A DNA stretch of 64,000 nucleotides. Origin: Bacteroidota bacterium (GTDB taxonomy: Bacteria; Bacteroidota; Bacteroidia; JAFLBG01). A program made the position numbers and the translations under genes. The notes under the pieces are model-generated. The model worked only from the letters and a program-made list of their open reading frames with translations, ran no database searches and was not told the DNA's origin. This document shows positions 46,658 to 56,226 of this stretch, piece after piece (position 1 is the first letter of the stretch; each line of letters opens with the position of its first letter). The DNA lies in NCBI GenBank assembly GCA_017303975.1, contig JAFLBG010000017.1, positions 1-64,000 on the forward strand. The letters run 5' to 3'.

Positions 46658-48346
46658 TTAGTGTTCCAAATTACTATGCTCTAACAATCCGTTATAGTTT
46701 TTAGGAGAAACAATCTCTGGCTTACTAATTCCGTTGTATTGTATAATTAGTGGGTAATTACCAAGCTTTATTGTTTGTGAAGAAAGAAATTCGTCAAAAT
46801 CAAAAGAGATAGGCAATACAATGTATCTGTTTTTATGATGATTTAAATTTTGATTTAACAAAAGCTCATACTTCGCTTTTTGTTCTAAATCTTCTTTAAA
46901 TAAATTTTTCGGTTTTACTTTGTGGTACACATGATAATCAATAGCAATAAGCTCTTTAAGCACCGTATCATTCGGAAAATACTCATTAGCATACTTATCC
47001 AATATAACATACGTTTCTTCCAAAGAGTGTTTATGAAAATCGCTTACTAACTTAAAAAAATTACCTAATTCAATAAAAAAATCAAAAACACTGTATTTCG
47101 AAGTAACGTATTTCAGCGTATTAATTGCTTTTTTCTTATTCCAGTAAATCTCCAATATATTTTCTAAATCTACTATTTTAGTACGTTCTACTTTAGACAA
47201 ATATTTACTCTCTATAATTTGATACGGTGGCATTGGATCAAACACAAATTCATGTTGATTATGTTTGTCTCGCACCGGAGTACCTTTCAAAAACTTAAGA
47301 AACCCAAGTTGCAGTTCCGGAGCAAACAATTTAAATACTTCTTCAAAACTATATTTTATATCATCCCAATAATCTAACGGTAGCCCAACAATTAAATCGA
47401 GATGCATTTCAATTTTACTAGACAAGGCATTTATTACACCTTTTGTTTTTTCGAAATTTTGTTTTCTACTTACTTCTAAGTTTGCCTTTTGATTAACAGT
47501 TTGTATTCCTATCTCGAACCTAAACAAGTTTGGAGGCACATGTTCGTTTATATACTTAATAATGTCCGGATGAACAATATCGGCTGTAATTTCGAATTGA
47601 AAAACATTATCCGGATGATGATGTTCCAATATAAATTTGAATATATCAAGTGTGAAGTCCTTTTTTACATTAAATGTTCTATCTAAAAACTTAATTACCT
47701 TTCCATGTTTCATTAAATACAACAACGTTGCTTTAATACTATCGTTAGGTAAATAGCGAACTTTATTATCCAAACTAGCCAAACAAAATTCGCACTTGTA
47801 CGGACATCCGCGTGATGTTTCTAAATACAAAACTCTATTTTTCAACTCCTCAACATTGTCGTCTGAGTATGGATTAATATGTTCGAGCTCCTTTAAATCA
47901 AACATTACAGGAGCAGGATTATGCACTACACCTTCGGTTGTTTTTCTTACCAGCCCTGCAACATTAGTTACATTAGGGAACGATTCTATAAATTGTCTAA
48001 ATGGAATTTCCCCCTCCCCTACGATTATGTAATCAACCTCCGGCAATGCTATTATTTCTTGCCATTCATAACTTACCTCAGGACCGCCCAACACTATTGT
48101 AATGTGTGGATTTATTTTTTTTAATTCCTTTATAACGGCAATGGTAGGCGTAATATTCCAGATATAGCAACTAAATGCCACTACCGTATAACTAGAACAA
48201 TAATTTGCTATGTCAACTTTTGATTCTTTTATAGTAAATTCCTTCCACTCTAGCCCATCAAAGCTCTTGTTTAATTGGTACAACAACCTAATAGCTAAAT
48301 TAGAATGAATATATTTCGCATTAAGAGTTGTAAGAAGAATACGCAT
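46658..48346 (-). CDS. B12-binding-domain radical SAM protein, DUF4080 family
   Basis: A 562-residue protein. Residues 1-135 resemble a cobalamin-binding Rossmann domain ('VLGGPEVSYEWQE', 'DYIIVGEGEIPF'). The radical SAM cluster ligands are Cys181, Cys185 and Cys188 in 'SRGCPYKCEFC'. A DUF4080 C-terminal region follows. The substrate of this group is unknown. It begins 21 bases after the preceding minus-strand gene, so it may be the last gene of the YidD-containing operon. Confidence 0.88.
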   Translation of the reverse strand: MRILLTTLNAKYIHSNLAIRLLYQLNKSFDGLEWKEFTIKESKVDIANYCSSYTVVAFSCYIWNITPTIAVIKELKKINPHITIVLGGPEVSYEWQEIIALPEVDYIIVGEGEIPFRQFIESFPNVTNVAGLVRKTTEGVVHNPAPVMFDLKELEHINPYSDDNVEELKNRVLYLETSRGCPYKCEFCLASLDNKVRYLPNDSIKATLLYLMKHGKVIKFLDRTFNVKKDFTLDIFKFILEHHHPDNVFQFEITADIVHPDIIKYINEHVPPNLFRFEIGIQTVNQKANLEVSRKQNFEKTKGVINALSSKIEMHLDLIVGLPLDYWDDIKYSFEEVFKLFAPELQLGFLKFLKGTPVRDKHNQHEFVFDPMPPYQIIESKYLSKVERTKIVDLENILEIYWNKKKAINTLKYVTSKYSVFDFFIELGNFFKLVSDFHKHSLEETYVILDKYANEYFPNDTVLKELIAIDYHVYHKVKPKNLFKEDLEQKAKYELLLNQNLNHHKNRYIVLPISFDFDEFLSSQTIKLGNYPLIIQYNGISKPEIVSPKNYNGLLEHSNLEH

Positions 48347-48367: not shown

Positions 48368-49225
48368 TTACATCAATAACGGGGTTAATTTAATTTTAAC
48401 TCGGCTATTGAATTCTTTCTTAATAACATCGTTTCTTTTTTCTGCTAAAAATTTCGACCTGCGAATGCCGCCTACATAAAACATTTGAAGCAAGCCGGTA
48501 CCAATTGTAAATGAAGAGAAATAATATTTATTGTACACCAACAAACCTGTAAAAGCAAAGCCGGACAAATTGAATACTGAACTCCAAATTCCTTCTTTTG
48601 TATATCCGGAATATACATGCCCCATTCCCGGTAAAAAAACAGATATATTCTCTGCCCTTCCGGGTATTTTAAGTTTAGGAAGCTTTTTGTCTGCATACTC
48701 ATTGTTTAGTAAGGAAAGCAAAGAATCTTTCATTGCAGAACTTAGTTGGTAGTTTTTTACGATAGATTGTATGTGTAGTTTGCAATCGCTCCATTTAAAT
48801 TTTTCATTTAAAATAAGTATATGCAATAGCTCGGAGTTCAATGTAAGCGCAGGATTTGTGACATCTAATTTAAGCTGCAATAATTGAGTTTCTGCTAAAT
48901 TAAAATTTGAGTTTAAATACGAACACAATGCCAATTGAAACCGACACTCCGCAGCCAAGGTGTCAGAAATTTCAGTAAAAACTAATCTCGAAAGAGTTGC
49001 TTCTGCTTCCGGATAACATCCCAATTGCTTATAACAATTTGCCTTTTTTAATAACGACTTATCAAAATCAATCGAAGTTTCAGATTGATATGCAAGTCGC
49101 TCGTAGGCAACTACAGCATCACTATACAGCCTAATAGAAAATAAACTATCTGCATCTAAAAACGTAGTTGCAAATAAACTATTTGTAACGGTTATAAGAA
49201 TTATATATGTCAAACAAAATCTCAT
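48368..49225 (-). CDS. Membrane protein with TPR-like N-terminal region and PGMGHVYSGY motif
   Basis: A 285-residue protein of no named family. A signal peptide (about 1-19) precedes a TPR-like helical region ('DADSLFSIRLYSDAVVAYERLAYQ', 'KANCYKQLGCYPEAEATLSRL'). After residue about 190 comes 'FLPGMGHVYSGYTKEGIWSSVFN' and hydrophobic helices ending near a 'GGIRRSKF' turn. The PGxGxxYxGxxxxG phrase resembles TM2/DUF5683-type membrane proteins. The upstream neighbour carries the same C-terminal layout, so the two look like diverged paralogues. The start overlaps that gene by 47 bases. Confidence 0.7.
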   Translation of the reverse strand: MRFCLTYIILITVTNSLFATTFLDADSLFSIRLYSDAVVAYERLAYQSETSIDFDKSLLKKANCYKQLGCYPEAEATLSRLVFTEISDTLAAECRFQLALCSYLNSNFNLAETQLLQLKLDVTNPALTLNSELLHILILNEKFKWSDCKLHIQSIVKNYQLSSAMKDSLLSLLNNEYADKKLPKLKIPGRAENISVFLPGMGHVYSGYTKEGIWSSVFNLSGFAFTGLLVYNKYYFSSFTIGTGLLQMFYVGGIRRSKFLAEKRNDVIKKEFNSRVKIKLTPLLM

Positions 49226-50051
49226 TATCTATCTCTTTATACTTATCAGCTCTTTTAAGTTTTACACTATAGGCACTTCCAACAATACTTCCAAGGTAAA
49301 ATGTGGTAAACAGCGACCCAAAAATGTAGGTTTGCGGTGTATTTAAACCATCTCTATAAATAGACTCTGCTGTGGCAGTTGCAAATATTAAGTTTGGCAT
49401 AAATGACGATAATGCCTTGCCACTGTACCCTGCATACATTTTGCCCGATCCGGGAATAACAGCGGATAGCAATCCGGCTACAAATGGCGATTTTCGTTTA
49501 ATTTTTTTCAAATCCACATAGTACATCAAAATATCTTTTTCTTCTTTAGCTAGTCTATAATCTTTTTCGCCAAACCTACTCGAAATAGAATCGAATGACC
49601 GCCAATTTCTATTCAAAAGTGCACTTGCCGCTTTTTGATAATTTATAAAGTGGTTCATATCATCTGTTGTATCTACTTTAATAGAATGAACAATACTATC
49701 GCCCAACATTCTTTTTCCGGTAAATAAATAACTATATGATAGCAGCAACGCGCTTTTTGTTTTTAAAGATGGAGAACTTATGTTTTTTAAATAAACAATA
49801 CAGCTATCAAATTTTTTCGATTTATGATAATTACTTGCAATAATAAAATCAATAGAATCAACTGTTGTACTTGAAATTTCCGGATATGTGGTTTTACATT
49901 TTTTTAACACATAATTAGCATCTTCCAACAAATTATTGGACAATAAATACCTTACAAAAGAAAACTCTTCTGCAATGCTTGTTTGTGAATGTAAGATGTT
50001 TGTAATTACAATAAAAAAAGCAATCAGCTTATATGTTTTGTAGCGTCTCAA
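49179..50051 (-). CDS. Membrane protein with PGSGKMYAGY motif, paralogue of its downstream neighbour
   Basis: A 290-residue protein of no named family. A signal peptide (ending HSQTS, about residue 25) leads to a helical region of about 170 residues. 'AVIPGSGKMYAGYSGKALSSFMPNLIF' and two to three hydrophobic helices follow, ending 'GSIVGSAYSVKLKRADKY'. The start must be TTG: the frame has no Met before residue about 115, and the TTG forms a TTGA overlap with the TGA stop of the YidD gene (50048-50051), a signature of translational coupling. Exported or inner-membrane location is predicted; function unknown. Confidence 0.7.
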   Translation of the reverse strand: MRRYKTYKLIAFFIVITNILHSQTSIAEEFSFVRYLLSNNLLEDANYVLKKCKTTYPEISSTTVDSIDFIIASNYHKSKKFDSCIVYLKNISSPSLKTKSALLLSYSYLFTGKRMLGDSIVHSIKVDTTDDMNHFINYQKAASALLNRNWRSFDSISSRFGEKDYRLAKEEKDILMYYVDLKKIKRKSPFVAGLLSAVIPGSGKMYAGYSGKALSSFMPNLIFATATAESIYRDGLNTPQTYIFGSLFTTFYLGSIVGSAYSVKLKRADKYKEIDNEILFDIYNSYNRYK

Positions 50052-50506
50052 TAATGCAGATGTTGATAGGTTTCAACAGAATCGATAATTCTATTTGATG
50101 TTTCTCTAAGATGATAATAATTGAAATCTCTTTTTGCCATTGCAGTGCATCTTGTAAGCCTATCTGCCGTAAGCGGAATTCCTTTTAGCAATCCGTAGGT
50201 GCGTATTACTTGGCGACTAAAAGACGAACAGCTTATTTCATAAGGACAATCTGCACCTAATTGTTTCGAAATATATTTTTGGTAAACAAATAACGAGCCT
50301 CCAAAAAACAAACTCACAGGATTGTACTTTACAAAAACATTTTTTTTGTCGGCAAACAAGTACGAAACTTTTCTTTCGTTGAATCGACTATCCGGAAACT
50401 CTTTGCTTAACGCTATACCCCAGTCACTCTTTGTTTGAGCAACAGATAAAAGTGCAAATACTTGCAGCAACACACTACTTCTTAGGACTCGTAACCACTT
50501 TTGCAT
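50048..50506 (-). CDS. YidD-domain protein with an N-terminal signal peptide
   Basis: A 152-residue protein. The YidD (PF01809) core lies at about 73-127: 'YQKYISKQLGADCPYEISCSSFSRQVIRTYGLLKGIPLTADRLTRC', including Cys87, Cys93 and Cys120. Ordinary YidD is about 70-110 residues, cytoplasmic-face and next to rnpA/yidC, helping membrane protein insertion. Here the domain is preceded by a clear signal peptide (about 1-24) and a 45-residue extension. No rnpA, rpmH or yidC is near. An exported, diverged YidD-like role is inferred. The start overlaps the upstream gene by 32 bases. Confidence 0.82.
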   Translation of the reverse strand: MQKWLRVLRSSVLLQVFALLSVAQTKSDWGIALSKEFPDSRFNERKVSYLFADKKNVFVKYNPVSLFFGGSLFVYQKYISKQLGADCPYEISCSSFSRQVIRTYGLLKGIPLTADRLTRCTAMAKRDFNYYHLRETSNRIIDSVETYQHLHY

Positions 50507-51185
50507 TCGAAGGAATAATAAAATCAATTAACTTAGAATCTGCCTGCTCATTAAACATCGGAGACGAATAGGTTCTTTTGGTAATACTTGAATCTTGAGG
50601 AGTCATAAATGTAATTTCAGTAACCGACATCGGAAAATTAATATTCCCAACCTTTTGGTAATTTCCAAAGTAGGTTTTGTTGTCTATTTCCTTTTTAGGA
50701 TTGTAAATACCAATATAAATAGGCAAGTTGTTTTCATATACAAGTTCGGCAGTTGCAGCACCTGCTTTAGATACTATAGAGCCAATCCAGTTTTTAATTA
50801 GTAGTTTATCTTCTGTTCTTACATCGCTTAGCTTAAAGCCAAGATTAGGCAGTCCCATATCGCTGGTTTTATTAGCCATAAAGCAGTTTATAAAGCTGTA
50901 TTTGGAGCTGTATTCCATTCCCAATTCTCTAATAACCGTATTGGTAGCAGGATCGTACATTTTATAATCTCCTTTGGCATCGGTTACAATGTATCGCTCC
51001 ATAGGTTTGCTAAAGTAGGTTACCATTTTTCCGTCTATATTTTTATAGCCAACCTTACCTTCTGCCGAAATATACTTTGCTTTATACAGGGTTTTTGCTG
51101 TCATATTTATACTTAGTTGATAAATTGGCGCAAAAGATGCAAAAGTGAAAACAATACAAATACAAAAAATGAAACGAATAAACAT
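50475..51185 (-). CDS. Exported protein, possibly LolA-like, first gene of the YidD operon
   Basis: A 236-residue protein with a signal peptide (about 1-20). The mature part is beta-rich, with features reminiscent of LolA/LolB-like or DUF4412-type proteins: 'GKVGYKNIDGKMVTYFSKPMERYIVTDAKGDYKMYDPATNTV', then 'NKTYFGNYQKVGNINFPMSVTEITF'. I cannot place it firmly. The ATG at 51185 is chosen because it opens the signal peptide and lies after a TACATTTG promoter element; the frame extends to 51242, which would cross that element. It overlaps the YidD gene by 32 bases. Confidence 0.7.
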   Translation of the reverse strand: MFIRFIFCICIVFTFASFAPIYQLSINMTAKTLYKAKYISAEGKVGYKNIDGKMVTYFSKPMERYIVTDAKGDYKMYDPATNTVIRELGMEYSSKYSFINCFMANKTSDMGLPNLGFKLSDVRTEDKLLIKNWIGSIVSKAGAATAELVYENNLPIYIGIYNPKKEIDNKTYFGNYQKVGNINFPMSVTEITFMTPQDSSITKRTYSSPMFNEQADSKLIDFIIPSNAKVVTSPKK

Positions 51186-51282: not shown

Positions 51283-51903
51283 CTAAAATTTTAAATTTAA
51301 TCCCATCATTGCATAATAAGGTGAGCCAATTGCACCTTCTAAATTAAATCCAATGTTTTGAGTAAAAAAGTAGCGCATCCCAACTAGTGCTTGGAATGTT
51401 GGACGTGAGTTAAACTGATTAATAAATTCACCTGTATTATCTCCTGTTACAGACCAAAGTGTATAAGAAATTCTTCCACCTGCATACATATCTAAATTTT
51501 CACTAGTTCCACCAAAGTGAAACAATGGTCGAACACCAATATTAGTTCTGGAAATGGTAGTTTTAAAATTACCAACAAAATAATATCCATTGTCATCATA
51601 ATAATCTGAATATTTTGATGTAAGGCTTTGATAAGAAGCCGCAACACCTAAGCTAAATACTTTTGCTACACCATAGTCAAGCATTACGTTCATACCGGGA
51701 GTTACACTAATACTTGCGCTGCTTCCGGAAGTATTTACTGATTCTTTAGCTAAATTGGCAAGTAGGCCAACTAGACTAAAACTAGCACCGCCAGTAACTA
51801 CAATATCTCCTTTTTCTTTTTGAGCAAAAACAGAATTTGGTTTAACTAGCCAACTAATAGCAATTATTAAAGCAATGGTTTTAATGGTAATTTGTTTGTT
51901 CAT
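51283..51903 (-). CDS. Outer-membrane beta-barrel protein
   Basis: A 206-residue protein with a signal peptide (MNKQITIKTIALIIAISWLVKPNSVFAQ). Strands of an eight-stranded small barrel follow, such as 'KVFSLGVAASYQSLTS', 'TISRTNIGVRPLFHFGG', 'LDMYAGGRISYTLWSV' and 'GFNLEGAIGSPYYAMMGLNLKF' at the end. It resembles OmpA/OmpX-like barrels of Bacteroidota. The ATG at 51903 is chosen because it opens the signal peptide. No partner domain is present. Confidence 0.75.
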   Translation of the reverse strand: MNKQITIKTIALIIAISWLVKPNSVFAQKEKGDIVVTGGASFSLVGLLANLAKESVNTSGSSASISVTPGMNVMLDYGVAKVFSLGVAASYQSLTSKYSDYYDDNGYYFVGNFKTTISRTNIGVRPLFHFGGTSENLDMYAGGRISYTLWSVTGDNTGEFINQFNSRPTFQALVGMRYFFTQNIGFNLEGAIGSPYYAMMGLNLKF

Positions 51904-52085
51904 TTTATAAGTTTTTGTTTGTTCTAATATACATTTTTTGTCGTTTAACACCAATATACTCTCCAATAAAGGCATTGCTAAAAATTACAGATATTCTTTC
52001 TAGGATATAAACATGAGCTGCAAAACATCTTGCATTTCAACTATTTTAAATTCTGCACTGCATTCACAATAATAGAGTAAATAAA

Positions 52086-54105: not shown

Positions 54106-54373
54106 TCAAAACAGCCGAAAGTAAACTAGTTATTTGTAAAATTTAACAATAAAAAGCTCATGCATTACTCTATTCAGGCGCAAATGGCTCATTATTAACA
54201 ATGTAAGTTTAATTGTTAATAACTTGAAGCTGTTAAATTTATTAAAAAATTCATGTGTATTGATAATCAGCAACTTAAAAATTTTAGAGATTTTTTGTTC
54301 ACAAGCTATCAACTTGCAATTAAAAATTAGGATGCCTAATTTTAACCACAAATTTACAACTCCAATTAGTATC
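54106..54373. other. Divergent intergenic region between rpsA and the TPR membrane protein gene
   Basis: Together with the rpsA leader this is about 360 gene-free bases, very AT-rich. A TAATTTTA element (54337-54344) on the plus strand could serve the downstream gene. I see no conserved RNA or repeat here. Confidence 0.4.
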
Positions 54374-56226
54374 ATGTTTTCAAGAAAAGGCTATTTGTTT
54401 ATTCTCCTGTTGGTTATAACGGTTGTTTTGTTTTTACCTACACTAAACAATAAAAGCATAAACTTAGACGACCCTCAATATGTTTTTCAAAATACTGATA
54501 TTCAAGATTTTAAAATAAATAATATAAAGTTGTTATTTAAGTCTACTTATGTCGGAAATTACCAGCCCATAAGTATGTTTACTTATTTGATAGACTATAA
54601 AATTTGGGGTGCAAACGCTAAAGGGTTTCACTTAACAAATTTAATCTTTCACACCATAAACACCTTGCTACTTTTCTATTTAATAACCTTTTTATTTAAA
54701 AATAGCCAGATAGCATTTATATCAGCTTTGCTGTTTAGCATTCATCCAATGCATGTTGAATCGGTGGCATGGATTTCGGCACGCAAAGATTTGGTTTATG
54801 TGTTTTTTTCTTGCTTTCAGTTGTTTTTTACCTGTTATTTAAACAAAAAGGGCAAAAATTGCTGTTTTTTCTTTCGTTAATTGCGTTTGTTTTTTCAATT
54901 CTGTCGAAAGCGCAGGCGGTTATTTTGCCTTTTGTTTTGATTTTGGTGGATATGCTAATTTTCAAGAATGCACTTTCTCGGAAAAATTTACTTCAAAAAA
55001 TTCCACATTTTATTATCTCTCTTATTTTTGGAGGATTGGCCATTTATATTCAAAAAAAATCTGGGGCTGTTCAAGATTTTGAATATTTCTCGTTTTTTAC
55101 ACGAATTTTATTTTCATGTTACGGCTTTGTTCAATATTTGTCTAAGCTAGTATTGCCAATTAATTTATCGTGTTTTTACCCTTATCCCGAAACCAACGAC
55201 AAAATAAATTCAAACTGGGTTTATGTAGCACCTTTTATAATTTTAGCACTTGCTTCAATTATCTATAAATTAAAAAAAAGAGATTCTGTATGGATTTTCG
55301 GACTCTTATTTTTTGTAGTTACTATTGGTCCTGTTCTACAACTCATTCCTGTTGGAGATGCAATTATTGCAGATAGATACACTTATTTACCGTACATTGG
55401 TTTGTTTATTATAATTGCGCATGAATTTGAAAAATTAAAATGGAGAACATTAGTTAAAAACACAACAATTTGTGCAATTGCTGTGGTATTGTTGTTTTTA
55501 AGTTTTAATAGAATTTTAAAATGGAAAGATAACATTACACTTTATACCGACTCGTTAAAAAAATATCCTGCGCCTATAATTTACAATAATTTGGGTGCTG
55601 CTTATGCCGAATTAGGCGATTATAAAAAAGCCCTTCCTTGCTTTACGGAATTAGTAAAGTTAAAATCAAGATATCCGAGCGGTTACAAAAACAGAGCTAT
55701 TACAAATCATAAACTAAGCAATTACGATGCTGCGGTTGCTGATTATACAGAGGCTATAAAGCAAGACCCAACTAACTTACAAAACTACTTGAGTCGTGGT
55801 GATAGTTACAAAACCAAAAACGATTTTACAAATGCTATAAAAGATTTTGATTACGTACTTTCTAAAGATTCAAACAATATAGATGCATACTATTCAAGAG
55901 GAGAATCTTTAGGAAAGAGTGGTAAAATGCTAGAAGCATTAAACGATTACAATATAGTTATAAGACGAAAGCCAAACTATGCAGAGGCTTATAGTAACAG
56001 AGGAATTGTAAACAGCATACTTACCAACTACACCGCTGCTATTGCTGATTTCACGAAATCTATCGAGCTAAAAGCGGATGGATGGAGCACATATATGAAT
56101 AGATCTATTGCATTAAAATCTACCGGAAACTATACCGATGCGCTTAAAGATGCACTAGTAGCTCAAAAAAATGGATATAATGTAGATCCTCTCTATATAG
56201 AAGATTTACAAAAAATGGGGAAGTAG
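54374..56226 (+). pseudogene. TMTC/GT39-like TPR membrane glycosyltransferase, split by a frameshift at a T7 run
   Basis: Two overlapping frames make one protein of about 617 residues. The first (54374-54880) has membrane helices and 'NYQPISMFTYLIDYKIWG', 'FSIHPMHVESVAWISARKDLVYVFF', then drifts into a nonsense tail. The second (open 54769-56226) continues the family sequence with 'FFLLSVVFYLLFKQKGQK', 'SKAQAVILPFVLILVDML', more helices and 'AIIADRYTYLPYIGLF', then about six TPR units (from 'PAPIIYNNLGAAYAELGDYKKAL'). The family is TMTC-like O-mannosyltransferase / GT-C with TPRs. The switch point is the seven-T run at 54803-54809; one extra T would restore the frame. It may be an inactivated gene, a phase-variable tract or a sequence error. 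An ATG at 54332 is an alternative start. Confidence 0.82.

Follow-up and report, generated by a model that had tools for sequence, protein, structure and literature searches.

YidD is normally a small protein that aids membrane building from inside the cell, and it is among the most widespread bacterial small proteins of unknown mechanism. The locus described here raises the question of what a YidD domain does when it carries a predicted signal peptide and is encoded among other exported proteins. The locus lies in a 64,000-nt stretch of DNA from a Bacteroidota bacterium (contig JAFLBG010000017.1), hereinafter referred to as the window. As a first-pass annotation of the window had stated, four overlapping genes were present, all on the minus strand: L (50475-51185; 236 aa from ATG, with a mature part of ~215 aa), encoding an exported protein of the LolA/LolB fold; Y (50048-50506; 152 aa from ATG, with an alternative TTG start at 50527), encoding the exported YidD-domain protein; B (49179-50051; TTG start); and its paralogue C (48368-49225). 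The overlaps were 32 nt for L/Y (53 nt with the TTG start of Y), 4 nt for Y/B (TTGA), and 47 nt for B/C. No homologue of the flanking genes, one outer-membrane-barrel-like (51283-51975) and one radical-SAM (46658-48346), was found beside the related cassettes collected, indicating that the conserved unit extends from L to C. Elsewhere in the window, at 54224-56226, a pair of ORFs (218 and 485 aa) overlaps in different frames; the two resembled one gene for a membrane/TPR protein that is interrupted by a frameshift around 54769-54880.

The Y protein passed the curated cut-offs of both YidD family models, PF01809 (49.7 bits against 27, 3e-13; Pfam) and TIGR00278 (61 bits against 40, 7e-17), and the hmmscan match was located at 50123-50290 on the minus strand, corresponding to residues 80-135 of the TTG-started ORF. 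A signal peptide was predicted at 50438-50506 (minus strand; MQKWLRVLRSSVLLQVFALLSVA), followed by a Gln codon (50435-50437). In an alignment of 44 exported Y proteins, Gln occupied one early column in 43 of the 44 rows, the residue before it was Ala, Ser, or Gly in 43 rows, and a hydrophobic stretch preceded this position. Gln immediately after the signal peptidase I cleavage site is known as the Bacteroidetes Q-rule (PMC5837995), and such a Gln was also present in about half of the B and L rows and in 43% of the C rows. The combination of a YidD domain with a signal peptide, which had been claimed in the first-pass annotation, was therefore retained, with export being supported as a prediction from the n/h/c signal-peptide pattern and the Gln at +1.

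Whether the same genome also has an ordinary yidD next to rnpA had been left to be checked, and such a gene was identified on another contig (G000:C2:131237) of this genome, whose size is 3.4 Mb and whose completeness is 99.8%. It encodes 74 aa, and its overlap with the rnpA stop amounts to 8 nt. The same gene order with overlapping rnpA and yidD occurs in E. coli, and the encoded protein has the ordinary C-terminus (RILSCNPWNKKSGYDPVP). Exported-Y genomes for which both genes were listed also carried an ordinary yidD copy. In the phylogenetic tree, a branch supported at 100/99 separated all 11 ordinary YidD proteins from exported Y. The idea that exported Y replaces ordinary YidD was rejected because the genome of the window has both.

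A total of 139 exported-type Y genes were collected, and the 126 with more than 2.2 kb of downstream sequence were counted for gene order. A B/C protein directly followed Y in 121 of the 126 loci and two B/C proteins did so in 116, while none followed ordinary yidD (0/11). Y and B overlapped in 110 of 131 pairs, by exactly 4 nt in 44 of them. Among 197 Bacteroidia genomes, 48 had both Y and B, one had Y only, and none had B only (Fisher 2e-45); a genome with a Y-B fusion (G091) was counted as having both. The single Y-only genome (G036) belongs to a family that has unlinked B-C. Further, in family f37, Y and B-C were located in separate loci of the same genome (L055/L219, L057/L220). The exported-Y profile was bimodal over the 197 genomes, with 48 exported-type genomes at E values from 4e-51 to 2e-23 and ordinary proteins at ~2e-22 and weaker, and the B set comprised 48 genomes at E<1e-20. 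The co-occurrence and gene order that the first-pass annotation had named as a check were thus borne out, and a chance association of neighbours was rejected on the 48/1/0 co-occurrence and on the recurrence of the arrangement in more than 100 genomes.

The cassette was also found outside the class, in families f69, f87, and f77, where the other neighbours differed (acyl-CoA dehydrogenase, ACT-domain protein), indicating that the Y-B-C trio is what is conserved. The contig scan for loci returned almost only Bacteroidota, and the survey was effectively within this phylum. A contig labelled Candidatus Parcubacteria (KatS3mg096; L184) carried a full L-Y-B-C-T cassette, in which T denotes the small exported proteins described below, and grouped inside Bacteroidota; it probably represents a mislabelled or contaminated bin. 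In another genome (G126; L223, 6170-6594), a second exported Y was broken into two frames; two T genes were located next to it and B/C-like genes on the other strand, and the arrangement was read as a decaying extra cassette.

B and C were found to be homologous to each other (hhalign 99.8%), in line with the earlier description of two related proteins sharing a PGxGxxYxGY phrase. Each has a signal peptide, a TPR domain, and a C-terminal hairpin, whose signature is PGxGK in B and PGxGQ or PGxGH in C. In the window, the motif reads PGSGKMYAGY in B (49425-49454, minus strand) and PGMGHVYSGY in C (48602-48631, minus strand). Its P, G, G, and Y did not vary across 35 B proteins; across 30 C proteins, the same held for P, G, and G and nearly so for Y. 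The B profile matched TPR structures, and C of the window showed a weak TPR_1 match. C is DUF5683-like: weak matches to PF18935 (DUF5683) were obtained for 24 of 30 C homologues (best 1.4e-6), and none was obtained in Pfam for B and C of the window themselves.

In addition, two natural fusions of Y, TPR, and hairpin were identified (L083, 402 aa; L113, 400 aa), so that Y and B form one polypeptide in two lineages, which was counted in favour of a Y-B-C platform. In the predicted structure of the fusion, the Y and hairpin domains were confident and their arrangement was unresolved (pTM 0.46); the prediction resolved no interface between Y and hairpin and gave no match in the PDB. The fusions also bear on the possibility that Y acts as a haemolysin-like or antibacterial peptide after secretion and its membrane partners provide immunity. 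The YidD family was formerly annotated as a haemolytic domain, and Y is exported, small, and cysteine-containing. Nevertheless, Y is single-copy as a rule, conserved across the phylum, fused to TPR-hairpin proteins, and free of hypervariability, unlike toxin-immunity loci, which makes this explanation highly improbable.

For L of the window, no Pfam family was matched, whereas 11 of 22 L homologues matched PF17131 (LolA_like; best 9e-5). PDB sequence searches with profiles of Y and L were uninformative. The AlphaFold model of L (pLDDT 90) was assigned by Foldseek to many LolA/LolB structures with a probability of 1.00; the best PDB match was P. aeruginosa LolA (8e-11), and P. gingivalis LolA3 and LolB were matched with a TM score of ~0.6. 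The LolA-like assignment, previously a guess from sequence, was therefore correct. Strong L matches were detected in 29 of the 197 genomes of the class, all of which had Y, and L was located directly upstream of Y. The L profile separated cleanly, with the strong set at E<=3e-65 and the next match at 2e-5.

Neighbour clustering revealed further components, the T and D families, which the first-pass annotation had missed, as it had the Y-B fusions. T proteins are small exported proteins with a hairpin, found at ~70 loci, frequently with several genes side by side; in L224, one single-strand operon reads T-T-L-Y-B-C-T. Two subtypes, T2 (TM2-like) and T6, were homologous by profile (96.6%), and PF05154 (TM2) was matched by 9 of 15 T2 members (best 4e-18). 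In the genome of the window, T was unlinked to the cassette (G000:C35:6425-6832; L218) and remained below the PF05154 cut-off (17.1 bits against 27.9). Homology between the B/C hairpins and the T hairpins was not supported by profile comparison. Family D, consisting of exported TPR-like proteins of ~306 aa with a WWxIISG motif, was observed near the cassette or beside T at about 31-34 loci (e.g., L041, 4147-5100; L230, 4862-5782). D was rejected as a core part, being absent from the genome of the window and strongly matched in 3 Y-negative genomes (14 of 17 D genomes had Y).

Strong T2 matches were present in 14 of the 197 genomes and T6 matches in 16, with one genome (G130) having both, giving a union of 29; the strong T2 set was unchanged at any cut-off from 1e-19 to 1e-25. 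L and T occupied an identical set of 29 genomes, all with Y, from 17 families (Fisher 3.5e-14 within Y-positive genomes), and these families often also contained genomes without any component. The L and T profiles were trained partly on Y-linked loci. Among genomes that contributed no T training sequence, T was found in 11/11 with L and 0/20 without L, and the association is thus not only circular. Related genomes enter these counts more than once, and the cut-offs were set after the scores were known. Moreover, the T subtype followed the Y clade: 42 T2-only and no T6-only cases were counted in clade I, against 1 and 11, respectively, in clade II. Genomes with two cassettes, one per Y clade, were also observed (L159, L161, L194, L203, L224/L040).

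Functional dependence can be argued from the joint presence of Y and B-C even when unlinked, the fusions, and the subtype pairing. These same features weigh against Y being simply a YidD paralogue that assists YidC-dependent insertion while located in the periplasm, with B, C, L, and T merely co-transcribed. Such a helper would account for the retained YidD domain and for the three Cys residues that were invariant across the 44 aligned exported Y proteins, but not for the near-perfect co-occurrence, and ordinary yidD was never found with these neighbours (0/11). We regard this explanation as quite unlikely.

We favour instead the interpretation that L-Y-B-C serves as a dedicated system for envelope assembly, which operates at the inner membrane on its periplasmic side and exists alongside the ordinary cytoplasmic YidD without replacing it; we assign it a probability of roughly 0.45. 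All four proteins would be exported. B and C would be anchored via their C-terminal TM2/DUF5683-like hairpins with the TPR domains in the periplasm, and Y may bind the membrane through the YidD amphipathic helix and dock on B/C, so that Y-B-C would form one platform. L would shield hydrophobic clients and hand them over. The clients would most likely include T, given its two-helix hairpin and the conserved motif after its signal peptide, although T may be a subunit instead. The anatomy, the export signature, the co-occurrence and gene order, the fusions, the pairing of T subtype with Y clade, and the fold of L rest on the observations above, whereas in the absence of biochemical data, the physical complex, the topology, the role of T as a client, and insertion or assembly as the reaction are all inferred. 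In addition, L and T were both absent from 20 of the 49 Y-positive genomes, and T therefore cannot be the only client. The first-pass annotation had suggested an envelope assembly system that differs from the insertion helper role of YidD; the difference holds for location and partners, whereas the biochemical activity remains an inference.

If T is a subunit rather than a client, it would be structural (pilin-like or a scaffold), and L-Y-B-C would be the route by which it is exported to, or assembled at, the outer membrane or the cell surface. The small T proteins are indeed exported and multi-copy; behind the signal peptide they share a conserved segment, and they contain a hydrophobic hairpin. 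One T6 member weakly matched a type IV secretion pilin family (0.0035). On the other hand, the pilin matches were below the cut-off, no outer-membrane channel was conserved in the cassette, and many Y-B-C genomes lacked T, leaving this possibility unlikely.

The main rival to an envelope-assembly system for proteins is a role in lipid trafficking, in which L would be a carrier of lipids or glycolipids fed by an MMPL/RND or MlaEF-type transporter, Y-B-C a docking or extraction site, and the T proteins small membrane adaptors. L has the LolA/LolB fold, a type of fold known to bind acyl chains. An MMPL/RND gene with a sterol-sensing domain was a neighbour at 15 loci, with T within 1 kb at 13 of them, and in the genome of the window this gene (G000:C35:4045-6318) was divergent from T at a distance of 106 nt. 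Moreover, mlaE- and mlaF-like genes were located directly upstream of Y and overlapping it in L058 (6007-7982) and L059 (4354-6304). However, this MlaEF neighbourhood was confined to family f12, and the MMPL family was present in 169 of the 197 genomes regardless of Y, for which reason the MMPL transporter was rejected as a dedicated partner. Further, the sole role reported for YidD relates to proteins (Yu et al., 2011, as cited in PMC8082313). Lipid trafficking thus appears doubtful, while being the strongest of the competing explanations.

Within the envelope-assembly interpretation, it may tentatively be proposed, at odds clearly short of even, that the cassette constitutes an undescribed route by which alpha-helical membrane proteins are carried after crossing the inner membrane, with a periplasmic YidD, a B-C platform, L as the carrier, and T clients specifying the cassette subtype. 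The component domains are known, and their combination was not found described in searchable papers; a literature search, which left most subscription papers outside its scope, yielded no paper on an exported YidD or this gene set. There is a real chance that the cassette represents a new kind of system. An exported YidD with fixed partners and possible clients offers a way to learn what the YidD domain does, since a partner, a fusion, and a client can be named, and cassette relatives are carried by the cultured organisms Filimonas zeae and Marinilabilia rubra. If L carries T, the LolA fold would be extended from lipoproteins to hairpin membrane proteins.

Compared with known systems, most C proteins have a PGxGxxY hairpin region that weakly resembles DUF5683 (PF18935), but is joined to an exported TPR domain; no published description of DUF5683 function was found in the literature search, which covered few subscription papers. 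T carries a TM2-like hairpin and differs from TM2-domain proteins (PF05154) in having, in addition, a signal peptide and a [YF]xhDExxhxxxF-like stretch that is conserved, with strong matches occurring only alongside L and Y. L has the same fold as the LolA/LolB lipoprotein carriers, but shares only about 9-15% identity with them, was found only in Y-positive genomes, and is encoded with Y-B-C-T rather than with LolCDE or other Lol genes. Y has the PF01809/TIGR00278 domain and the amphipathic N-terminal stretch of ordinary YidD, the insertion efficiency factor of E. coli, together with the CxxxxxCS...(R/K)C cysteine pattern common to most members. In contrast to ordinary YidD, Y has a signal peptide and a linker of ~40 aa in front of the domain, and the C-terminal RCxPWxxGGxDPVP present in the 11 ordinary YidD proteins is replaced. 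Y is not located beside rnpA/yidC, its neighbours being L, B, and C, and it forms its own clade with dedicated partners, in genomes where ordinary yidD is present besides. By the features tested, the cassette belongs neither to ordinary YidD nor to the Lol pathway.
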